From Sulfurimonas sp. (lineage in GTDB: Bacteria > Campylobacterota > Campylobacteria > Campylobacterales > Sulfurimonadaceae), in NCBI GenBank assembly GCA_028687935.1, contig JAQTZE010000001.1, forward strand, positions 279,633 through 343,632: DNA of 64,000 bases, in the 5' to 3' direction. Below the pieces are notes generated by a model. It ran no database searches. It was not told the origin of the DNA and was given only the letters and a program-made list of their open reading frames with translations. A program made the translations under genes and the position numbers. Below, piece by piece: positions 1-49,438 of the stretch (the first letter of the stretch is position 1; the number at the start of each line of letters is the position of its first letter).

Positions 1-1944
1 GCGTTTAGCAGTAATGGGGAGTATTTTGCAGCAATGAGTTCTGATGAACAAGAGTCAAAACTTTTTAATGTCAGTACAAAAAAAGCTACTGCAAAAATGA
101 ACAGACACCAAGGGGAAGTCTCTTGTGTCTTTATCGATTCAAAAAACAGATATATGCTCTCTGGCGGAGATGATGGTAAGACTTTTGCCATAGATATCAA
201 AAGTGCAAAACTTGCGTTTACTCTTCCAATACATATTGATACGGTCAATGATATCGCCTGCAGTCTCAATGGAAACTGGATAGCTACTGCGAGTTATGAT
301 AAAAAAGTCTCCCTTTTTAACATAGCAACGATGACACCAAAAGATAAGTTTATAGGACATAGCGCTCCTGTTATGAAGCTAAAATTTATTGCAAATAATC
401 GACTTGTCAGTATTGACAAAGAAGCAAACGCAATCATTTGGAGCGTTGTAACTGGGAAAATTATAACAAGACTCCAAGGTATTCATGATGATGTTACACA
501 AATAGTCATCAGTAAAGATAATAAGTTTTTATTTTTAGGAACTGCCCTTGGATACATCATCGCATATGATCTTAAAACCTATCAACTTCTCTCGAAAAAC
601 TTTATCAAACTATCTTCCTCAATTACAGCTTTAGAGTTTGATGGAGCTACAAATGATCTTATTATTGGGACTGAAAAAGGAGATCTGCTTGCTTATTATA
701 TTTACGAGGGTGAGACCTTATTGCATGAGCTCTTAAGTGAAAAAAAATATGATGACATCATCAAGCAATCAGAGATAAACCCGTTTTTATCTTACACAAA
801 AATCTATGAACTTGTTTCTAATCTTTGGGAAAAAACAGTTGCACAGGCCAAGCTCTCTCTTGAAAAGGGAGATAAAAGAACAGCTATCAAACTCTTTGAC
901 AATTTTAAAACGATTCCTGCTAAAAACACTATCATTAAAAAAATATTACTTGAATATGAAGATTTTGACAAATTTTTACTCTTTGCAAAACAAGAAAAAT
1001 ATCCTCTTGCCTATGGACTTGCCAATGCGCATCCTATGTATAAAGAGTCAAAAGTATATAAAATCCTCGAATCAAGATGGAAAAAAGCTTTTTCTTTAGC
1101 GCAAAAGTTTACCATGGAGCCTAAAGGTGCTGAGAAAGCCAAAGAGATTTTATCACCTTATCGTGGTCTGAGTGAAAAAACACAGTTTATTCAAGATCTC
1201 CTCACGCAAGGGGAAGTTTATAAGCGTTTTCGCGTTTCTATCAGCCAAAAAGATTTTAAAATATCGTTTGAACTAATCAAGCAGCACCCATTTTTGATGG
1301 AGTTTGAAGAGTATGATGTTTTGATGCGCTATGCGGATACACTCTATATAAAATCACAGGAATGTATAAAAGCTGGAGATACGCACTCGGCTATCAAAAT
1401 GTTGAGAATTTTGACAGATTTTAGTGACTTTACTGAAGAGGTGAAAACACTTATGGTAGAGATAGAAGCAAAGGAGAAATTTTTTAACGCTGTCAAAGAA
1501 AACGATATGCTTCTTGCCTATAATCTCTTGGACAAAATAGAAGAGTTACAAGATACTCCCGATGGGAAGCTACTTCAAGAGCAATGGAATAGAGATCTTG
1601 CAAGTGCTAGTGAATATGCCGCTAAAGGATCTGTTGCGGGAATTCTTCAAGTTCTCAAGCCCTATATAAAAATACACTCAAAATTTATGTCTTTTGCGAC
1701 ACTCTTTGGTTGGTGTTATATGGTACAACTTGAAAATGCAATCAAGCTCAAAAAAGAGAGAGCAGAGATTGAAAATGGTATAAAAAATTATGTCCTCAAC
1801 TTTGGTATTCAAGACCAGATCGAAAACCTTTTTGCTGTTTTCATAAAACACTATCCAGACACAAAGCTCTCACTTGAACTCCTCTCAAAAGGTTCTCTCT
1901 CTATGTGGAGACCTCCAATGATTGTAAAATCTATTCTTGACTAG
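1..1944 (+). CDS. WD40-repeat protein with helical C-terminal half (5' partial)
   Basis: The frame is open to base 1 and residues before the first in-window ATG at 34 (AFSSNGEYFAA) already read as a WD40 blade, so the gene starts outside the window and the ATG at 34 is internal. About 647 residues are visible. The first ~240 carry beta-propeller repeats (blade ends such as KTFAIDI, KVSLFNI, AIIWSV, IIAYDL). The remaining ~400 are charged and helical with no signal peptide or membrane span, suggesting a solenoid. No catalytic motif is visible, so a scaffold role is inferred. Nap clusters of this phylum contain a shorter WD40 protein, NapL, but this is much longer and no nap gene is present. 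Product certain only at domain level. Confidence 0.8.
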   Translation, partial: AFSSNGEYFAAMSSDEQESKLFNVSTKKATAKMNRHQGEVSCVFIDSKNRYMLSGGDDGKTFAIDIKSAKLAFTLPIHIDTVNDIACSLNGNWIATASYDKKVSLFNIATMTPKDKFIGHSAPVMKLKFIANNRLVSIDKEANAIIWSVVTGKIITRLQGIHDDVTQIVISKDNKFLFLGTALGYIIAYDLKTYQLLSKNFIKLSSSITALEFDGATNDLIIGTEKGDLLAYYIYEGETLLHELLSEKKYDDIIKQSEINPFLSYTKIYELVSNLWEKTVAQAKLSLEKGDKRTAIKLFDNFKTIPAKNTIIKKILLEYEDFDKFLLFAKQEKYPLAYGLANAHPMYKESKVYKILESRWKKAFSLAQKFTMEPKGAEKAKEILSPYRGLSEKTQFIQDLLTQGEVYKRFRVSISQKDFKISFELIKQHPFLMEFEEYDVLMRYADTLYIKSQECIKAGDTHSAIKMLRILTDFSDFTEEVKTLMVEIEAKEKFFNAVKENDMLLAYNLLDKIEELQDTPDGKLLQEQWNRDLASASEYAAKGSVAGILQVLKPYIKIHSKFMSFATLFGWCYMVQLENAIKLKKERAEIENGIKNYVLNFGIQDQIENLFAVFIKHYPDTKLSLELLSKGSLSMWRPPMIVKSILD

Positions 1945-1976
1945 TTGCTTTAAACCTCCAAAAAACTAAACAACAC

Positions 1977-1995
1977 ACTTCAATTGCATTGAAGT
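1977..1995 (+). terminator. Hairpin after WD40 gene, or operator of next gene
   Basis: Perfect 8-bp inverted repeat ACTTCAAT-TGC-ATTGAAGT. It follows the WD40 stop codon by 33 bp, but only a short T-rich stretch follows it, so termination would be weak. It also lies where a -35 element for the TATAAT at 2005 would be, so it could instead be a repressor site for the TPR gene. Confidence 0.4.
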
Positions 1996-2004
1996 AGCCT
2001 TTGT

Positions 2005-2010
2005 TATAAT
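2005..2010 (+). promoter_or_regulatory. -10 box upstream of TPR gene
   Basis: TATAAT preceded by TTTGT, 30 bp upstream of the ATG at 2041. A TTGCAT lies 15 bp further upstream, a short spacing; in this phylum the -35 is usually unrecognisable. Confidence 0.45.
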
Positions 2011-2040
2011 GAAAGCAATTTTTAATTATAAAGGCTGTTT

Positions 2041-2886
2041 ATGAATCTAATGTTTAAAATTTTGACACTTCTTGTGTTATTTGTTCTTCCGAGTACGCTT
2101 TGCGCTGCTGAGGAAGAAACGCAAGGAGTAAAAAAACTATTAGAAAAACCATTAATAGAAAGATATATTTTAGATGAGCTCAAAGATTTACGTTTAGAAA
2201 ATATGAAGCTGCGTAATGAGGTTGAGAGAAGAATCTCCAAGACAGAAGTCGAACAAACCGACCGCGCAGCAAGATATATGACTGATACGATAGGAAATGT
2301 TTTCTACCTTATTGCAGCTGCAACATCCATACTGATTTTTGCTGGATGGAACTCTCTTCGCGATATCAGAAGCAAAACAGAAAGTATCGTTGAAGAGCGA
2401 GTCAATCAGATCACACAAAAATACAACACGCAGATGCAAAGTCTTCAAGATACGATGACGCTACAATCCAAAAAAATACTTGATAACCAAAATAAAATTT
2501 ACAATACCCAATATATTCACTCTCTTTGGATGCGATCCAATCTAGAAACAAGCGCCCAATCACGCATAGATATCTATGATGAGATCATCAAAGTAAACGC
2601 AAATGATGCTGAAGTCTATGCCTACAAAGCAGATGCTGTCCTTGATATGGACGAGTACGAATGGGCTCTGAATCTTAGTAATAAAGCCATTGAAATTGAC
2701 CCCGAATATGGGTATGCGTACTGGCAACGTTCTTGCGCACATGCAGTACTTGGTAATAAGAAAGAAGCTGTAGCAGATTTGGCTACTGCTATACAAAAAT
2801 CACCTAATCTCAAAGATGAAATTGAGGGCGAGGAACTCTTTGAAAACTTGAAAGAAAATGAAGAGTTCAAAAAGTTTTTAAGCTAG
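2041..2886 (+). CDS. Membrane-anchored coiled-coil/TPR protein
   Basis: 281 aa. An N-terminal signal peptide (hydrophobic ILTLLVLFVLPSTLCAA) is followed by a coiled-coil stretch with many Glu, Lys and Arg (~25-75), a single membrane span (NVFYLIAAATSILIFAGW, ~88-106), a second coiled coil (~110-150) and about two TPR motifs (~175-260; e.g. AEVYAYKADAVLDM, GYAYWQRSCAHAVLG). The topology would leave the TPRs in the cytoplasm if the signal is cleaved. TPRs mediate protein contacts; no partner is identifiable. It has its own TATAAT box, and ilvB downstream has another, so it is probably monocistronic. Conserved membrane TPR protein of unknown role. Confidence 0.85.
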   Translation: MNLMFKILTLLVLFVLPSTLCAAEEETQGVKKLLEKPLIERYILDELKDLRLENMKLRNEVERRISKTEVEQTDRAARYMTDTIGNVFYLIAAATSILIFAGWNSLRDIRSKTESIVEERVNQITQKYNTQMQSLQDTMTLQSKKILDNQNKIYNTQYIHSLWMRSNLETSAQSRIDIYDEIIKVNANDAEVYAYKADAVLDMDEYEWALNLSNKAIEIDPEYGYAYWQRSCAHAVLGNKKEAVADLATAIQKSPNLKDEIEGEELFENLKENEEFKKFLS

Positions 2887-2962
2887 ATACTTTATCTATT
2901 TAAATCTATATTAGAATAAAAAACTATCTCCCCTTTTAACCTCAAATATAGCTCCTTTTTTA

Positions 2963-2968
2963 TATAAT
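2963..2968 (+). promoter_or_regulatory. -10 box of ilvB operon
   Basis: TATAAT within TTTTTTATATAATAA, 42 bp before the ilvB ATG, with T-rich sequence upstream as is typical of Campylobacterota promoters. The ilvB Shine-Dalgarno (AAGAGGAG) follows. Confidence 0.45.
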
Positions 2969-3010
2969 AACCGAATTTTCAAAATTAACATTTATAAGAG
3001 GAGACTTTTC

Positions 3011-4705
3011 ATGCAAATTAGTGGCGCACAGATGGTCATTGAAGCTTTGATTGCAGAGGGTGTAGATACAATTTTTGGCTACCCTGGTGGAGCAATCATG
3101 AACGTCTACGACGAAATATACAAGCAAGATGGTTTTCAACATATTTTAACTCGTCACGAGCAAGCTGCAGTCCATGCAGCAGAGGGTTACTCAAAGGCAA
3201 GTGGAAAAGTTGGCGTGGCACTCATAACGAGTGGCCCCGGTTTTACAAACGCAGTGACAGGTTTGGCAGATGCCTATATGGATTCTATTCCTTTGGTTGT
3301 TATCAGTGGACAGGTTCCTATGAGCCTTATTGGTACGGATGCGTTTCAAGAGATCGATGCAGTCGGTATCTCACGTCCTTGTACAAAACACAACTATCTT
3401 GTCACAGATGCCGCTGATTTGGCACGTGTACTTAAAGAGGCGTTTTACATCGCAGCAAGCGGTCGTCCAGGTCCTGTTCATGTTGATATCCCTAAAGATG
3501 TTACAGCACAGATCGCAGAGTTTGATTATTCAAAACCTGTGGAAATTGAGACATACAAACCAAATGTAGTCGGAAATCCTCGCCAAATCAAGAAAGCTAT
3601 TGAGGCTATCGCAAACTCTAAAAGACCACTCTTTTATTTAGGTGGTGGTATTATTAACTCAAACGCAGCTTATCAAGTAAGAGAACTTGTTAAAAAAACA
3701 GGAATCCCTGCTGTTGAGACTTTTATGGCACGTGGAACACTCTCTTATGATGATGAGCTTCTTATCTCTATGCTTGGTATGCATGGTTCTTACGCGGCAA
3801 ATATGGCGATGAGTGAAACAGATATGGTTATCGCTCTGGGTGCAAGATTTGATGACAGAGTTACTGGCAAACTCTCAGAATTTGCTAAAAACGCAGGAGT
3901 TATCCATGTGGATATTGATCCTGCAAGTATCTCAAAGCTTGTAAACGCAGACTTTCCTATCGTTGGTGATGTGAAAAATGTTGTTGAACAGATGCTTGAA
4001 AAGTGTTCAGAGATAGATCCTGATAATTATGAATCATGGAGAGAGACTATCAATAACTTTGATGAGTTGCATCCGCTAACTTTTCATGAAGACACAGACA
4101 GAATTAAGCCGCAATGGGTTGTAAAACGTGTGGGTGAGCTTCTTGGCGATAGTGCAAACATCTCTACTGACGTTGGACAACACCAGATGTGGTCAGCGCA
4201 GTTTTATCCATTTAGCAGACCTCGTCAATGGATAAGCTCTGGTGGTCTTGGCACAATGGGCTTTGGTTTTCCAGCGGCTATCGGTGTAAAAGCAGCAGCG
4301 CCAGATAAAGTAAGTATAAACATTACAGGTGATGGCTCTATTTTGATGAATATCCAAGAGCTGATGACGGCAGTTGAGAAAAAGCTACCAGTTATCAACA
4401 TCATCTTAAATAATAATTATCTTGGAATGGTTCGCCAGTGGCAAACTCTTTTCTATGACAAACGCCATAGTGAGACAGATCTCTCAGTACAGCCTGACTT
4501 TGTAAAAGTTTCAGAAGCATTTGGCGGTATAGGGTATAGAGTTACTACAAAAGAAGAGTTTGATATTGCGCTCAAAGAGTCAGTTGAGAAAAATGTTGTC
4601 TCCATCATCGATGTTGTTGTTGAGAGACTTGAGAATGTTATGCCGATGGTCCCAGCAGGTGGAAGTCTGTTTAACATGATGTTATTAGAGAAAAAGGAGA
4701 AGTAG
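3011..4705 (+). CDS. ilvB: Acetolactate synthase large subunit
   Basis: 564 aa, normal for the ThDP-dependent acetohydroxyacid synthase catalytic subunit. It condenses two pyruvates, or pyruvate and 2-oxobutyrate, in valine, leucine and isoleucine synthesis. The N-terminal Pyr domain has GYPGGAIMNVYDEI and the ThDP-activating Glu in RHEQAAVHAAEGY. A central FAD-binding domain follows (LGMHGSYAANMA, GARFDDRVTG). The C-terminal ThDP motif is GDGSILMN...IILNN. A good SD (AAGAGGAG) sits before the ATG. The regulatory subunit ilvH starts right after the stop with its SD inside this gene, so the two are translationally linked. Gene order ilvB-ilvH-lpxD is the same as I recall in C. jejuni. Confidence 0.97.
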   Translation: MQISGAQMVIEALIAEGVDTIFGYPGGAIMNVYDEIYKQDGFQHILTRHEQAAVHAAEGYSKASGKVGVALITSGPGFTNAVTGLADAYMDSIPLVVISGQVPMSLIGTDAFQEIDAVGISRPCTKHNYLVTDAADLARVLKEAFYIAASGRPGPVHVDIPKDVTAQIAEFDYSKPVEIETYKPNVVGNPRQIKKAIEAIANSKRPLFYLGGGIINSNAAYQVRELVKKTGIPAVETFMARGTLSYDDELLISMLGMHGSYAANMAMSETDMVIALGARFDDRVTGKLSEFAKNAGVIHVDIDPASISKLVNADFPIVGDVKNVVEQMLEKCSEIDPDNYESWRETINNFDELHPLTFHEDTDRIKPQWVVKRVGELLGDSANISTDVGQHQMWSAQFYPFSRPRQWISSGGLGTMGFGFPAAIGVKAAAPDKVSINITGDGSILMNIQELMTAVEKKLPVINIILNNNYLGMVRQWQTLFYDKRHSETDLSVQPDFVKVSEAFGGIGYRVTTKEEFDIALKESVEKNVVSIIDVVVERLENVMPMVPAGGSLFNMMLLEKKEK

Positions 4706-40726: not shown

Positions 40727-41584
40727 ATGGCATTTAATTATGATAAATATTTAAGACTAGAAAAAATGCCAACACTATGGTGTTGGGGCTGTGGAGATGG
40801 CGTTATTCTTAAGGCTTTCGTTAGAGCAATCGATAAACTTGGAATCAATAAAGATGACGTTTGTGTTGTCTCTGGAATAGGCTGTTCAGGAAGATTTTCA
40901 TCATATGTTGACTTCAATACAGTGCATACAACACATGGTCGTACAGTTGCGTTTGCAACAGGTATCAAACTTGTTCACCCTGATAAATATGTTATCTGTG
41001 TAGCGGGTGATGGTGATGCACTAGCAATCGGTGGTAACCACACGATTCACGGTTGTAGAAGAAACATAGATATTACTATGATTATCATCAACAACTTTAT
41101 CTATGGTTTAACAAATTCTCAAACTTCTCCAACTACTCCAAAAGGTATGTGGACAGTTTCTCAAAAAGCTGGAAATATCGATCCAACATTTGATACATGT
41201 AACTTAGCTATCGCTGCAGGAGCTTCTTTTGTCGCTCGTGAAAGTATGCTAGATGCGAAAAAACTTGAAAAAGTCTTTATCAAAGCAATTGAGCATAGAG
41301 GTTTTGCATGTCTTGATGTTCTTTCAAACTGCCATATCAACCTTGGTCGAAAAAACAAAATGGCATCAGCTATGGAAAATTTGGAGTGGATCGATAGAAT
41401 CACTACACCAAAGAAAAAATATGATGCTCTTTCTCCAGAAGAACAACTCAATATGTTCCCAACTGGTATTTTAAAAGAAGATACAACAGCTGATGAATAT
41501 TGTGATATGTATGCAGAAATCATCAAAGTACATCAAGGTCAGAGAAAAACTATTTCTCAAGATGACTTTGCTAAAAAAATATAA
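40727..41584 (+). CDS. oorB: 2-oxoglutarate:ferredoxin oxidoreductase, beta subunit
   Basis: 285 aa. ThDP pyrophosphate-binding subunit: LWCWGCGDGVILKAF at the N-terminus, VSGIGCSGRFSSYVDF, and the ThDP motif AGDGDALAIGGNH...IIINN. Cys residues in CWGCG and GCSG may bind a cluster. Starts one base after the oorA stop; SD AAAGGAG. Confidence 0.96.
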   Translation: MAFNYDKYLRLEKMPTLWCWGCGDGVILKAFVRAIDKLGINKDDVCVVSGIGCSGRFSSYVDFNTVHTTHGRTVAFATGIKLVHPDKYVICVAGDGDALAIGGNHTIHGCRRNIDITMIIINNFIYGLTNSQTSPTTPKGMWTVSQKAGNIDPTFDTCNLAIAAGASFVARESMLDAKKLEKVFIKAIEHRGFACLDVLSNCHINLGRKNKMASAMENLEWIDRITTPKKKYDALSPEEQLNMFPTGILKEDTTADEYCDMYAEIIKVHQGQRKTISQDDFAKKI

Positions 41585-43034: not shown

Positions 43035-43040
43035 TTCAAA

Positions 43041-43370
43041 GGTACAACAGATAGTGACTTGAATTTTTATATTCAAGAGGAAAGTCCGAGCTGCTGTAAG
43101 ACAGTGTTCCATTTAACGAATGGCCGTAGTAATACGAGGGAAAGTGCAACAGAGAATTAGACTTCTACTATACATTATAGTAGTAAAGGTGAAAAGGTGG
43201 TGTAAGAGACCACCAGTCTTTATAGTGATATAGAGAGCTTGAAAACCCAACATGGCAGCAAGAAACAGATGGTTAGCGTCTTACATTGCTATTGTTTCGC
43301 TAGAGGTACTATGTAAATGGTACAGTAGATTAATGCTATCTAGACAAAACTCGGCTTATAGTTGTACCAA
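43041..43370 (+). ncRNA. rnpB: RNase P RNA (bacterial type A)
   Basis: About 330 nt. The termini pair as P1 (GGTACAAC with GTTGTACC). Conserved core words are in order: GAGGAAAGTCCGAGC (P4/J3-4), ACAGAGAA, GGTGAAAAGGTGG...GTAAGAGACCACC (P10-P11), and CAAAACTCGGCTTATAG at the 3' end (P4 partner and P1). It is the ribozyme that trims tRNA 5' leaders. Ends are set by P1 pairing and may be off by a few bases. Confidence 0.95.
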
Positions 43371-43454
43371 AAGAGCATATATGTATTTTCAATAGAATTT
43401 ACATTATGTTAACCAGTACTATAATATACACCAATCTCACAGGAATACTTGCTT

Positions 43455-43661
43455 ATGACACGAAAAGAACAACTTATCGATGATATAGAAAAACTTCTCA
43501 ATTCATATTCTGGAATCACTTCTACACATATAAGCCCTGCTTTATTAGAATTTATGGATGAAGATACATTAATCAATATTATTGATTCACTCCTTACACA
43601 AAAAGAAAATTTACTCGAATCAAATATAGAATGGCTAGAAAAATTTAAGAAGCAAGAATAA
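43455..43661 (+). CDS. Small acidic helical protein, unknown
   Basis: 68 aa from ATG 43455; a TTG at 43449, closer to the AGGA, is the alternative start. Sequence is rich in Glu, Lys, Leu and Ile (RKEQLIDDIEKLL, ESNIEWLEKFKKQE), predicted helical, with no signal, span or Cys. It lies alone between rnpB and the response regulator. The coding call rests on the SD and on composition only. Confidence 0.6.
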   Translation: MTRKEQLIDDIEKLLNSYSGITSTHISPALLEFMDEDTLINIIDSLLTQKENLLESNIEWLEKFKKQE

Positions 43662-43796
43662 ACTCTTTCACAAATAACAATAATCATATAATTTAACACC
43701 TTTCTCTTTCGTAACTTATTCCCTAAAATAGCCACTTTCAAGAATGTTATTAATAGTTTTGTTTCTTCTTGTTATCAATATTAAGAAATTTGATGT

Positions 43797-43802
43797 ATAA
43801 TT
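43797..43802 (+). promoter_or_regulatory. -10 box of the REC-RHH response regulator
   Basis: TATAAT preceded by TTTGATG, 27 bp before the ATG at 43829; SD AGGAAT follows. Confidence 0.5.
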
Positions 43803-43828
43803 TTATAAATTAATAAACAGGAATAATT

Positions 43829-44374
43829 ATGGCAAATGTAGATTTAGTACAATTAACACAAGAGACAAAAAAACTTACTGCAATGATCGTTGAAGATGAA
43901 AAAGTTACGAATGAGCTACTAAGCTCAACATTCAAAAACTTTTTTGCTGATGTACACTCATGCTTTAATGGTGATGAAGCAATCAAGGTATTTAATAGAA
44001 CAAAACCTGATGTTGTTTTCGTTGATATTATCATGCCAGGTATGGATGGTATTGAACTCTCACGTAGAATCCGTGAAGAAAATCCTGGACAAATCATTAT
44101 TGTAATATCTGCAAGTAATGACATTGAAAAGATTTCTGAATCTATCGAAGTTGGTGTAAACAGCTTTATTCAAAAACCAATTGATACGAAAAAAATCATT
44201 GAGCTTTTGACAAACGTTGTGGGTATTATCGCTAAAAAGAAAAAGATAGAGACAAAAACATTTTCTATCTCTCTTCCTCTTGATCTTTATGAGTCTGTAA
44301 ACGAAAACGCAAAGGCAGAAAGTATCTCTAAAAATGCTGTCATAATTAGAGCACTTAGAAGTTTTTACGAATAA
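43829..44374 (+). CDS. Response regulator with ribbon-helix-helix output domain
   Basis: 181 aa. Receiver domain at ~17-130: acidic pair in MIVEDEK, phospho-acceptor Asp in VVFVDIIMPGMDGIEL, Ser in VISASND, Lys in IQKPID. The last ~40 residues, KTFSISLPLDLYESVNENAKAESISKNAVIIRAL, match the pattern of Arc/MetJ/CopG ribbon-helix-helix DNA-binding domains (a beta strand then two helices). Output domains in this superfamily are usually winged helix or HTH, so REC-RHH is rare. No histidine kinase is adjacent. DNA binding by a phosphorylation-controlled RHH dimer is inference. Confidence 0.88.
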   Translation: MANVDLVQLTQETKKLTAMIVEDEKVTNELLSSTFKNFFADVHSCFNGDEAIKVFNRTKPDVVFVDIIMPGMDGIELSRRIREENPGQIIIVISASNDIEKISESIEVGVNSFIQKPIDTKKIIELLTNVVGIIAKKKKIETKTFSISLPLDLYESVNENAKAESISKNAVIIRALRSFYE

Positions 44375-44435: not shown

Positions 44436-44465
44436 TTCGGCTCAGTAATTAAGACAACTGAAGTG

Positions 44466-44539
44466 GCCCCGTCGTCTAGCGGTCAGGATCCATGGTTTTC
44501 ATCCATGTTACAGGAGTTCAATTCTCCTCGGGGTCACCA
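44466..44539 (+). tRNA. tRNA-Glu (UUC anticodon)
   Basis: 74 nt with encoded CCA. Acceptor GGCCCCG pairs with CGGGGTC; the anticodon arm CATGG-TTTTCAT-CCATG gives TTC; the T arm is AGGAG-TTCAATT-CTCCT. Followed by CACTTTTTCTC, a T-run that may end transcription. An IS30-type element is inserted 31 bp downstream. Confidence 0.95.
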
Positions 44540-44570: not shown

Positions 44571-45620
44571 TTTGCCCATTCAATAATCAAGTGCAACACA
44601 GTTATTTTTATAGTGTAGCTTCGAGTCATCAATCCATTGTGCAATTTTAGCAAAGAATACTTCATCTGGAGTTTTATATCCGAGTATTTTTCGAGGTCTA
44701 TGGTTTAATTTTTCTTCTATTTGAACGATAAACTGATCAGTTATTGTCTCAAACTTCGTCTTCTTTGGGATATATTCCCGTATCAATCCATTTGTATGTT
44801 CATTCAATCCCCGCTGCCAAGATTTATAAGGTTCAGCGAAATAAAACTCAACTCCAAGTCTTCGTTCAATCAATGCATGATTCGCAAACTCTTTTCCATT
44901 ATCACTGGTAATAGTTTGGATTACTCCTCGAAGTGGTTCCATTAAACGCAGAATTGCTTCAGTTACTTCATAGGCTTCTTTGGTAGGTGCTTTACGCATC
45001 AAGGTAAACTTTGAATGTCTATCTACAAGGGTAACAATACTTTGACAGGACGTGTATGGATAGGTTTTGCTCTTGGGATTTTCCCTCGTAACTCATAGAT
45101 CCCCCGTCGGCTTTTATACTTACGGTGTTTATGTCGTAAATAGTGTGAGAGTTCTTTGTGACCTTCTCGCATACGTCGATAGATATACCGATATATAGTT
45201 TCATGACTAAGACTTATCAGTCCATCTACACTCATTCGTCCGGCTATCTGTTCAGGACTCCATCCTTCTTTGAGTTTAGCCAGGATATATCGATGATGAG
45301 CTTTACTCATCTTCAAATTCTTTCTCTTCTTTTGATATCGAAGTCTTGCACTCACTTGGGCATAGTGGGCAATATAATCCCCACTATCCAACTGATTTCT
45401 CCGTATCTCTCGTCCTATTGTTGATCGATGAACACCAAGTATTTTTGCTATCGCACTTTGGCTTACTCGCTCTCTAATTAAAGCTTCTATTTGGTATCGT
45501 TGTACCATGGTCAATTGGTTGTAGCTCATGAAAGTCCCTTTATCTCTCGTCGGATAAAATCGACTCTAATCTACAACCTCTTGATCATCCCTGTTGCACT
45601 TTAAATTTGAATTGGCGAAA
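44571..45620 (-). mobile_element. IS30-family insertion sequence (decayed)
   Basis: About 1,050 bp. Imperfect terminal inverted repeats: left TTTGCCCATTCAATAATCAAGTGCAAC (44571-44597), right GTTGCACTTTAAATTTGAATTGGCGAAA (45593-45620); TGCAC-rich inner and TTGAAT-GGC-AA outer blocks match. They enclose one transposase, broken in the middle. Length and layout fit the IS30 family. A duplication of two bases (AC on both sides) is possible but too short to prove. Confidence 0.8.
44580..45529 (-). pseudogene. IS30-family transposase, frameshifted with internal deletion
   Basis: Two frames hold the pieces. The N-terminal part (45023-45529, 168 aa) has the HTH region QSAIAKILGVHRSTIGREIRRN and ELRGKIPRAKPIHTRPV. 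The C-terminal part (44580 to ~45043 in another frame) resumes at QSIVTLVDRHSKFTLMRKAP and has TITSDNGKEFANH and YKSWQRGLNEHTNGLIREYIPK, with the second Asp and the Glu of the DDE triad. Between HTRPV and QSIVTLVD the usual segment of ~20-25 codons with the first catalytic Asp (the GxWExD-type motif) is missing, and the frame is shifted. It cannot encode an active transposase by itself. Confidence 0.88.
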
Positions 45621-45755: not shown

Positions 45756-48011
45756 TTATTTTAACTTTTCAGCGACAAGTTCATTTACTACTTGTGGGTT
45801 TGCTTTACCCTCTGTAATTTTCAGTACCTGCCCTACAAAAAAGCCTAATAGTTTTGTGTTCCCTGCTCTAAACTTCAGTACATTATCTGGATTTTTTGCA
45901 ATTACTTCATCAATAATCGGTAAAATTTTAGAAGGATCACTTATTTGTACAAGCCCTTTGGCTTCAACTATTTGTGTTGGATTTTCTCCTGTTTGGGCCA
46001 TCTCTTCAAATACTTGTTTAGCAATTTTATTTGAGATAATTTCATCATCTATCATTTTTACAAGCTCTGATATCTGCTTTGCATTAAATTTAGGTTTATC
46101 AGCCTGTATCTGTTTGAACTCTCTAGCTACCTCATTAGCTATGATGTTAGCTAAGGCTATAGGACTACTTAACACAGATAAAGACTCTTCATAAAATGAT
46201 GAGAGTTGCTTATCGCGAGCTAGAGTATTAGCTACTTCACTGTTGAGTCCAAATTCACTTGTGTACTTATCAAATAATGCTTGCTCTTCTTTATTCATAG
46301 GCACTACTTCACCATCTACATGCACTTTTTGAATTTGAGTTTTGCGTTCACCATTGTGTCTATTCTCAGTTGTTTGGTTTTTAGCCCAAGAATCTTTAAG
46401 ACCTACAATTTTATTAAACACAGGGGTTTCATCAGTAGAGTCGATAGGATCAGCATAGAAATATCCATGTCTTTCAAACTGAAATCTTTCATCAGGTTTG
46501 TCTATGACAACAGCTGGCTCAATAAGAGCATTTTTGATAATTTCTAAAGAGTCTGGATTAATATCTTCTAATCCTTCGGGAGCTTCATCTTTAAAAAGTC
46601 TATCATATACTCTTACTTCAATTTTTTTAGCTGCTACCATATCTACCCATTGAATAGCGCTTTTAACTTGGATACCGCTAGTATCTGAGCCACTTTTAGA
46701 TTCAGGATAATATTCTGCTTTTATTTCAGTGATATTGCCGTTGGCATCTTTTATGACTTCCTTACAAGTGATGATATAAGCATGTCTAAGTCTTACTGAC
46801 TGTTCTGGTGTAAGGCGGAAGTAATCTTTTGGAGGATTTTCCATAAAGTCATCACGTTCAATATAAATTTCTCTTGATAAAGGTATCTTTCGTGAACCCT
46901 CTTTAGGCACATCGTGTGGATAGTATGAAGCATCAATGTCTTCAGAACCCACATAGTTCACGATAGTGACTTTGAGTGGATTAAACACACACATAACACG
47001 TGGTACTTTAGTATTAAGGTCATCTCTGATACAAAACTCAAGTTGTGAAACATCGACTGTTGAGTTTGCTTTTGCAATACCTATTTGATCACAAAAGTTG
47101 ATAATAGACTCCGGCGTGTAACCTCTTCTTCTATATCCAGCGATTGTCGGCATGCGAGGGTCATCCCAACCATTTACTTTTCCTGTATTAACCAACTCTA
47201 AAAGCTTTCTTTTACTCATAACAGTATAGTTAATACCGAGTCTAGCAAATTCGTGCTGATAAGGTCTTGGTGCTGTAAGTCTGAGTGTATCAAGTACCCA
47301 ATCGTAAATATCACGATTGTTTTCAAACTCCAGCGTACAGATAGAATGCGTAATACCTTCAATATAATCAGATAAACAGTGTGCGAAGTCATACATTGGG
47401 TAGATATTTGCATCTCCAGCTCTATAGTGATGCGTATGTCGAATACGATATAAAAGAGGATCTCGCATCTTCATATTGGCTGCAGACATATCAATCTTAG
47501 CTCGAAGGACATGTGCACCATCTTGAAATTCACCTTTTTTCATTCTAAGAAAAAGGTCTAGATTTTCTTCAATGCTGCGCATGGCATACTCGCTGCGTTT
47601 TCCAGTCTGTGTCACTGTGCCCCTATATTCTCTTATCTCTTCTTCATTGAGACTATCGACGTAAGCCTTACCCATTTTGATAAGTTCAACAGCATAATCA
47701 TATAATTTTGGAAAGTAATCAGAAGTAAAACGCACATTGCCATCCCACTCAAAACCCAGCCAATCTACAGCATCTTTGAGAGCTTCAACATATTTCGTAT
47801 CTTCGGTTGTTGGATTGGTATCATCCATTCTTAGATTACAATGACCATGGTAGTCCTGCGCTATACCAAAGTTTATACAGATAGATTTAGCGTGCCCTAT
47901 ATGTGGAAATCCATTGGGCTCAGGCGGAAATCTTGTTACAACCTCTTTATATTTGCCTGACTTTAAATCCTCTTCTACTATTGTTCGTAAAAAATCTTTG
48001 TTCTCACTCAT
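45756..48011 (-). CDS. glnS: Glutaminyl-tRNA synthetase with C-terminal YqeY/GatB-like domain
   Basis: 751 aa against ~550 for E. coli GlnRS. Class I catalytic core: PPEPNGFPHIGHAKSIC (HIGH), RMDDTNPTTEDTKYVE, and the KMSKS equivalent in YTVMSKRKLLELV. The anticodon-binding beta barrels follow (~340-560). The last ~190 residues form a GatB/YqeY tRNA-binding domain (ISELVKMIDDEIISNK, KGLVQISDPSKILPIIDEV, GFFVGQVLKITEGKANP), as in Deinococcus-type GlnRS. Most Campylobacterota make Gln-tRNA by GatCAB, so GlnRS may be an acquisition. Only two AAACGCA words, both near its 5' end, and an IS element next door fit that view. Confidence 0.94.
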   Translation of the reverse strand: MSENKDFLRTIVEEDLKSGKYKEVVTRFPPEPNGFPHIGHAKSICINFGIAQDYHGHCNLRMDDTNPTTEDTKYVEALKDAVDWLGFEWDGNVRFTSDYFPKLYDYAVELIKMGKAYVDSLNEEEIREYRGTVTQTGKRSEYAMRSIEENLDLFLRMKKGEFQDGAHVLRAKIDMSAANMKMRDPLLYRIRHTHHYRAGDANIYPMYDFAHCLSDYIEGITHSICTLEFENNRDIYDWVLDTLRLTAPRPYQHEFARLGINYTVMSKRKLLELVNTGKVNGWDDPRMPTIAGYRRRGYTPESIINFCDQIGIAKANSTVDVSQLEFCIRDDLNTKVPRVMCVFNPLKVTIVNYVGSEDIDASYYPHDVPKEGSRKIPLSREIYIERDDFMENPPKDYFRLTPEQSVRLRHAYIITCKEVIKDANGNITEIKAEYYPESKSGSDTSGIQVKSAIQWVDMVAAKKIEVRVYDRLFKDEAPEGLEDINPDSLEIIKNALIEPAVVIDKPDERFQFERHGYFYADPIDSTDETPVFNKIVGLKDSWAKNQTTENRHNGERKTQIQKVHVDGEVVPMNKEEQALFDKYTSEFGLNSEVANTLARDKQLSSFYEESLSVLSSPIALANIIANEVAREFKQIQADKPKFNAKQISELVKMIDDEIISNKIAKQVFEEMAQTGENPTQIVEAKGLVQISDPSKILPIIDEVIAKNPDNVLKFRAGNTKLLGFFVGQVLKITEGKANPQVVNELVAEKLK

Positions 48012-48139
48012 TCTTATTAAACCTTTTTAGTTTTAAAACTCTTATTATTGCTTGTATCTTATCAAATTCGAACTTATAGCTCAATTTTTCTCTTAGCTAA
48101 AACTTGTTAAAATTCCAAAAAAATTATGCAGGGATTATA

Positions 48140-49438
48140 ATGCTAAGATTTTCATCCAGCCCTATAGGTGATATGCATATAGGCAATTTAAGAGTTGCCC
48201 TACTCAGTTATATTATCTCACAACAAAAAAAAGAAGATTTAATAGTTAGAATTGAAGATATGGACAAAGAGAGAAATATAGTAGGTAAAGATCAAGAGAT
48301 ACTAGACATACTTGATCTTTTTGAAATTAAATACTCTCAAACGATTTACCAAAGTCAAAATGCCCGTTTTTATTCTGCTATGGCTCTACAGCTTATGCAT
48401 GACAAAAAAGCATTTAGCTGTTTTTGTTCTCCTCAATGGCTTGAGGGGAAGCAAGAAGAAGCTAAAGCTGCAAACAAACCTTACAGATACGATGATGCCT
48501 GCGCTACTCTTCCGGCAGAGCTTGTCATAGATAATACCAACCCCTTTACAGTGAGAATTAAAAAAACAGAAAATTCAATCACTATAAAAGATCACATTAA
48601 AGGTGAAATGACATGTACGCCTCAAGAGTTAGATAGTTTTGTCATCCTTAAACATGATAAAACTCCTACTTATGATTTTGCATCTGCAATTGATGATATG
48701 CTGAGTGATATATCACTGGTCATTCGTGGTGAAGGACATATGAGCAGTACCCCCAAAGAGGATATGATCAGAACAGCTCTTGGGTATGAGAAAAAAATTG
48801 AGTATGCTCACCTGCCAATAATTTTAAATGATTCTGACGATAAAATGAGCGAAAAAGGTGATGCATCAAGCGTTATCTGGCTTTTAAAAGAAGGATTCCT
48901 CCCCTCTGCGATATCAAATTATTTAATATCAATGGGGAACAAGACTCCAAAAGAGATATTCACGCTAGAAGAATCTCTAGAGTGGTTTGGCCTTGAAAAT
49001 CTCTCCAAGTCCCCTTTTTGCTTTAAAATGGATACGCTGAGACATATAAACAAAGAGCACTTGAAAAATATGCAAGCCAAAGAACTTTCAAGATATGTCG
49101 GGTTTGCTGATGAAGAAATTGGCAAAGTAGCAAAAGTTTACTTGAGCGAAGCAAGCACTACTAAAGAGCTTAAAAGCAAGATAGAACCAATATTTGCACC
49201 TAAAGTTATCCCTGCTGATGCTAAGGAACAAACACAAAGTATGGCTGAGTGTATAAAAAATGCACCCTACTTTGATACATATGAAGATTTTAAAAATCAT
49301 ATCATAAAAGAAACAAGATTAAGTGAGAAAGACTTTATTAAATCATTGCGTTTATTGCTAACGGGTGCTGAGTTTGGTCCAGATATTTCAGAGCTTTATC
49401 AGCATCTTAAAAACTACCTTGGAGAAATTGTAAAATGA
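48140..49438 (+). CDS. gltX: Glutamyl-tRNA synthetase (GluRS, class I; second-type)
   Basis: 432 aa from ATG 48140 (MLRFSSSPIGDMHIGNLR); the track's upstream start at 48104 adds unconserved residues. HIGH motif is MHIGNLRVALL; the KMSKS motif is DDKMSEKGDASSV. The discriminating domain (~70-200) and helical anticodon domain (~310-432) are GluRS-like; it is somewhat shorter than the ~465-aa standard enzyme. Campylobacterota usually have two GluRS, one charging tRNA-Gln. The position before yggT matches what I recall for one of the C. jejuni gltX genes. Divergent from glnS across 128 bp; overlaps yggT by 4 bp. Confidence 0.93.
   Translation: MLRFSSSPIGDMHIGNLRVALLSYIISQQKKEDLIVRIEDMDKERNIVGKDQEILDILDLFEIKYSQTIYQSQNARFYSAMALQLMHDKKAFSCFCSPQWLEGKQEEAKAANKPYRYDDACATLPAELVIDNTNPFTVRIKKTENSITIKDHIKGEMTCTPQELDSFVILKHDKTPTYDFASAIDDMLSDISLVIRGEGHMSSTPKEDMIRTALGYEKKIEYAHLPIILNDSDDKMSEKGDASSVIWLLKEGFLPSAISNYLISMGNKTPKEIFTLEESLEWFGLENLSKSPFCFKMDTLRHINKEHLKNMQAKELSRYVGFADEEIGKVAKVYLSEASTTKELKSKIEPIFAPKVIPADAKEQTQSMAECIKNAPYFDTYEDFKNHIIKETRLSEKDFIKSLRLLLTGAEFGPDISELYQHLKNYLGEIVK

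Follow-up and report, generated by a model that had tools for sequence, protein, structure and literature searches.

The gene located at positions 43829..44374 (+ strand) of the window, a 64,000-nucleotide stretch of Sulfurimonas sp. DNA, encodes a response regulator with a ribbon-helix-helix (RHH) output domain. Its open reading frame starts with an ATG codon, specifies 181 amino acids, and possesses orthologues in other genomes; our analysis confirmed that its product is built from a receiver domain, a basic linker, and a C-terminal domain of the RHH_1/CopG family. Such a wiring of a gene switch is unusual and apparently undescribed. The initial annotation had already read the protein as a normal receiver fused to a C-terminal RHH segment, and had named HMM or structure comparison of the C-terminal residues as the test of this reading; the test was run, the RHH claim survived it, and the fusion is borne out by Pfam searches and by structure comparison alike.

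The receiver domain spans about residues 17-128 (43877..44212, +), and Pfam placed the Response_reg family (PF00072) on residues 19-127 with a score of 92.3 bits. It contains the acidic pair E22/D23, the phospho-acceptor D66, S94, F113, and K116; Asp66 (VVFVDIIMPGMDG), the predicted site of phosphorylation, has its codon at 44024..44026 (+). In the AlphaFold2 model of the full-length protein (pLDDT 83), an N-terminal helix and the receiver are followed by a long helix (residues 120-138), a disordered linker (low pLDDT at residues 139-144), and two further helices, and the PDB neighbors of this model are receivers. Judged by sequence entropy and pLDDT, residues 129-141 (44213..44251, +) form the end of helix alpha5 and the basic linker, a segment that is variable at first and then reads KKKK(I/V)E.

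The RHH domain comprises residues 142-181 (44252..44371, +), which Pfam, AlphaFold2, Foldseek, and the entropy profile jointly delimit as the strand TKTFSISLP and two helices. Pfam assigned RHH_1 (CopG family) to residues 145-181 with 21.0 bits, as compared with a gathering score of 20.5, and with 24.3 bits if only the C-terminal 49 residues were scanned. Among 21 diverse orthologues, Response_reg was found in all 21 and RHH_1 at E<=0.01 in 15; neither these proteins nor that of the window gave a Pfam match to a helix-turn-helix family, and the output domain recovered was RHH_1. When residues 137-181 were folded alone, AlphaFold2 predicted two helices preceded by an extended segment, with a pLDDT of 92.5; the RHH strand was unpaired in the models, as expected for monomers, the only form modeled. 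The top PDB match of the isolated C-terminal piece in Foldseek searches was CopG (1ea4/2cpg/1b01; probability 0.99-1.00, TM 0.76-0.78, rmsd 1.2-1.5), followed by AmrZ, Arc, CdbA, PutA, and NikR; nearly all neighbors are RHH proteins. With only 45 residues, the domain is too small to give strong E-values (0.04 and up). A search of the PDB sequences with the 52-residue RHH stretch alone yielded no match, and the RHH profile retrieved only CopG and AvtR from the PDB (E 0.1-0.8, with CopG at 0.8). Profile and predicted fold both lead to the recognition of a strand-helix-helix domain.

CopG, AmrZ, and Arc (RHH_1, PF01402), the nearest solved structures, share with this domain the strand-helix-helix arrangement with a KxxxIxL(P) strand, the turn, and the hydrophobic pattern; they are, however, stand-alone proteins regulated by concentration or ligands, whereas the RHH domain studied here is the output of a phospho-receiver. 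Conversely, regulators of the OmpR, NarL, and NtrC types possess the same N-terminal receiver with its Asp, Lys, Thr/Ser, and aromatic switch residues, followed by a linker and a C-terminal DNA-binding domain, but their output is a helix-turn-helix and not a beta-ribbon of the RHH type. The only related pairing that we found in the literature is the archaeal RHH-HisKA-REC architecture of Lokiarchaeum (PMC5847659), which likewise unites an Arc-type RHH domain and a receiver in one polypeptide; there, a hybrid kinase carries the RHH domain at its N-terminus, while in the Sulfurimonas protein it is C-terminal and a kinase domain is lacking. In the literature searched, we found no account of an RHH domain serving as the output of a response regulator, and the corresponding terms are missing from two domain censuses (PMC1183210, PMC4558063), although an earlier mention of the architecture is possible.

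To define the distribution of the regulator, we searched 397 genomes of the class Campylobacteria with an orthologue cut-off of E<=1e-45. The regulator was present in 49 of them, with one match each. In the Sulfurimonadaceae, the family to which the window belongs, 44 of 52 genomes were matched; if G428, in which the gene is cut by a contig end, is counted in, the number rises to about 45. All four sampled genomes of a second family (f4) possess the regulator (about 60-62% identity), as does one genome of a third (f6; 53% identity). Among the best relatives, identity amounts to 80-98%; their records are titled Sulfurimonas, Sulfuricurvum, or related Campylobacterota. The fusion of receiver and RHH domain recurs in 92 distinct orthologues and is therefore not a product of chance. 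A profile of the RHH domain and linker revealed no further REC-RHH proteins in 298 genomes of the class; the weak matches of the RHH profile include a stand-alone RHH protein. A Photobacterium plasmid match that covered 86% of the query was discarded, as it is a receiver whose C-terminus is winged-helix-like, of the OmpR type, and not RHH. As most of the Sulfurimonadaceae, a globally abundant, sulfur-oxidizing family, have retained the regulator, the regulon it controls may be of importance to their physiology.

We regard the following explanation, taken as a whole, as probable, albeit well short of certain: the protein would be a two-component response regulator that serves as a DNA-binding transcription factor. 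Its RHH domain would form the usual intertwined dimer on its own, and the two-stranded ribbon of this dimer would read short TGTTA-like half sites. A histidine kinase encoded elsewhere (in f4 probably an adjoining FIST-domain cytoplasmic kinase) would phosphorylate Asp66, and the altered receiver-receiver contacts would then change the affinity or cooperativity of RHH dimers at tandem TGTTA sites; the regulator probably also binds its own promoter.

The pattern of sequence constraint across the 92 collected family members bears on the DNA-binding part of this proposal. The strand that corresponds to the DNA contact surface (residues 142-150) is the most conserved part of the protein, with a mean entropy of 0.04, and in 88 of 91 relatives the RHH domain, which is nearly invariant in the family, has a higher identity to the window protein than the receiver has. 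Free to vary are the beta2-alpha2 region (entropy 1.54) and residues 128-135 of the linker (1.70), as opposed to 0.39 at linker residues 136-141. The RHH strand of CopG and Arc sits in the DNA major groove, and residues 144, 146, and 148, which alternate along the strand, presumably face this groove in the regulator as well, as judged by alignment with Arc and CopG. With a contact strand so strictly conserved, one recognition code could be readable in many genomes at once. These features, together with the presence of the receiver on the same gene and the lack of a toxin gene nearby, speak against a role of the RHH domain in protein binding, as an antitoxin-like or nucleoid component, instead of gene regulation. 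We consider such a role highly improbable, even though many antitoxins belong to the RHH_1 family and the nucleoid protein CdbA (PMC7156744) is among the structural matches.

The constraint on the receiver speaks to phosphorylation. Asp occupies position 66 in 91 of the 92 sequences and Glu in the remaining one, and Ser94, Phe113, and Lys116 are invariant; retention of Asp66, Ser94, and Lys116 at this level points to real phospho-transfer chemistry. It argues, as does a histidine kinase gene adjoining that of the regulator in f4, against an atypical, phosphorylation-independent regulator in which the receiver is a dimerization or docking module and the RHH domain binds DNA constitutively. We judge this reading to be rather unlikely, but it draws on the lack of a kinase gene next to the regulator in Sulfurimonadaceae, and it is kept alive by a divergent family member from genome G345 (L168:4909-5457), in which Asp66 is replaced by Glu and Asp23 by Ser (turning the acidic pair into ES) while the RHH domain is intact. 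Judged from its sequence, this variant may be a constitutive form. Its gene resides at a different locus, yet still adjoins a tRNA-Glu gene.

How phosphorylation would act on the DNA-binding unit is a separate issue. In characterized RHH domains (Arc, CopG, and AmrZ), dimerization is obligate and goes hand in hand with folding, and for this reason the RHH domain of the regulator is expected to dimerize without help from the receiver. While the initial annotation was right about the receiver and its RHH output, as HMM and structure comparisons attest, its suggestion that phosphorylation-driven dimerization creates the DNA-binding unit has become less likely. According to that model, the protein remains monomeric until phosphorylation drives the receivers to dimerize and thereby assembles the RHH domain. 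The strong conservation of beta4, beta5, and alpha5 (mean entropies of 0.13, 0.07, and 0.29, some of the lowest within the receiver), which lie near the dimer face of OmpR-type receivers, would suit it. Nevertheless, we regard it as improbable, since RHH domains of the characterized kind are stable dimers alone and nothing suggests that this one is unusually weak, the isolated domain being predicted with confidence. More plausibly, phosphorylation changes receiver contacts, dimer-dimer cooperativity, or access to DNA and does not bring the dimer into being. The combination of an obligately dimeric RHH domain with a phospho-receiver thus raises the question of how phosphorylation can modulate a preassembled DNA-binding unit.

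We looked for candidate binding sites in the DNA preceding the gene. A promoter scan detected a -10 element, TATAAT, at 43796..43801 (+; within TGTATAAT), followed by the ribosome-binding site ACAGGA at 43817..43822 (+). Together with TTATCA at 43772, the TATAAT hexamer yields a predicted promoter with 10 of 12 consensus matches, the number of promoter matches being not above that in shuffled sequences; TATAAT is, in addition, the top motif across the orthologous upstream regions and is found shortly before the start codon in most orthologues. Two copies of TGTTA are present upstream, one at 43745..43749 (+) and a second at 43770..43774 (+), 26 bases upstream of the -10 element, and both are candidate operator elements. 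Of 64 non-redundant regions upstream of the regulator gene, 84% contained TGTTA, versus 24% of 312 control promoters drawn from the same loci; the nominal p of 1e-19 for this difference is inflated, because related genomes do not provide fully independent upstream sequences. At least two copies were present in 23 of the 64 regions (36%) but in merely 9 of the 312 controls (3%), and no other ordering of the letters TTTGA was as strongly enriched. Of the control promoters with a TATAAT, only 16% carried TGTTA. The distances of TGTTA from the -10 element are not uniform, clustering mostly at -17 to -20 and at -26/-27, and its occurrence at several offsets does not fit a fixed -35 element. By visual inspection, TGTTA or runs of GTTA/GTTT are also present in the upstream regions of three f4 genomes. 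We infer from the enrichment of TGTTA upstream of the orthologues that it is probably the operator of the regulator, which would entail autoregulation of its gene. A palindrome, TTGTTAACAA, was rejected as an operator: its two exact copies in the genome, no more than those of the reversed control, both lie in rpoC-/rpoB-like coding sequences, and the exact palindrome search of the genome revealed no regulon.

As the initial annotation had stated, the regulator of the window is an orphan: the gene is solitary, and no histidine kinase gene was seen beside it. What had been overlooked is the interval in which it resides. The order of genes in the window is oorDABC-type genes, tetR (on the opposite strand), the RNase P RNA gene (43039-43374; RF00010, 214.9 bits), a conserved small open reading frame (43455..43661, +) directly downstream of the latter, the regulator, tRNA-Glu (TTC; 44465..44539, +), IS30-like fragments, and glutaminyl-tRNA synthetase. 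The succession of rnpB, small open reading frame, with or without the regulator, and tRNA-Glu recurs in several Sulfurimonadaceae loci. In 67 of 80 loci, the small reading frame immediately precedes the regulator in the same orientation; most of the others lack upstream sequence. Its 68-residue product is helical, without a convincing Pfam family, and usually encoded by one copy per genome. We rejected this syntenic neighbor as a functional partner because it is kept without the regulator, both in other families and in four Sulfurimonas genomes (L174-L177) where the regulator is cleanly absent between it and tRNA-Glu; because it is unlinked in f4 (G039:C1:1884350, with the regulator at 41301); and because it is present in 155 of 397 Campylobacteria genomes.

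Besides the conservation of the regulator throughout the Sulfurimonadaceae, the initial annotation had missed a histidine kinase gene that adjoins the regulator in the f4 relatives. In all four f4 genomes sampled, a gene for a FIST-N/HATPase_c protein is arranged tail-to-tail with that of the regulator. This protein has about 682 amino acids, a weak HisKA match, and the phospho-acceptor-like motif AHQWRQP, and it is a candidate for the partner kinase in this family. Examples are found at L167:5674-7719 and at L169:3148-5196 and 1067-3151; one genome possesses two such genes in tandem. As a universal partner, the FIST kinase was rejected. The Sulfurimonas FIST proteins are only distant relatives, with at most about 29% identity to the f4 kinase, and several regulator-bearing genomes lack a match, so that the partnership in f4 is not simply transferable to Sulfurimonas. 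We tentatively suggest, as a possibility in which our confidence is limited, that the regulator represents a lineage-restricted class in which receiver phosphorylation controls an RHH reader, possibly in conjunction with a FIST-domain cytoplasmic kinase, and whose type of output has apparently not been characterized before.

Two further features were noted close to tRNA-Glu. Just downstream of it, an IS30-like transposase gene on the minus strand (44580-45529) is split into two open reading frames (45529-45023 and 45002-44580) and is therefore probably a decayed insertion. At 45756-49438, the gene for a glutaminyl-tRNA synthetase of 751 amino acids with a long C-terminal extension lies beside a glutamyl-tRNA synthetase-like gene that encodes 444 amino acids.
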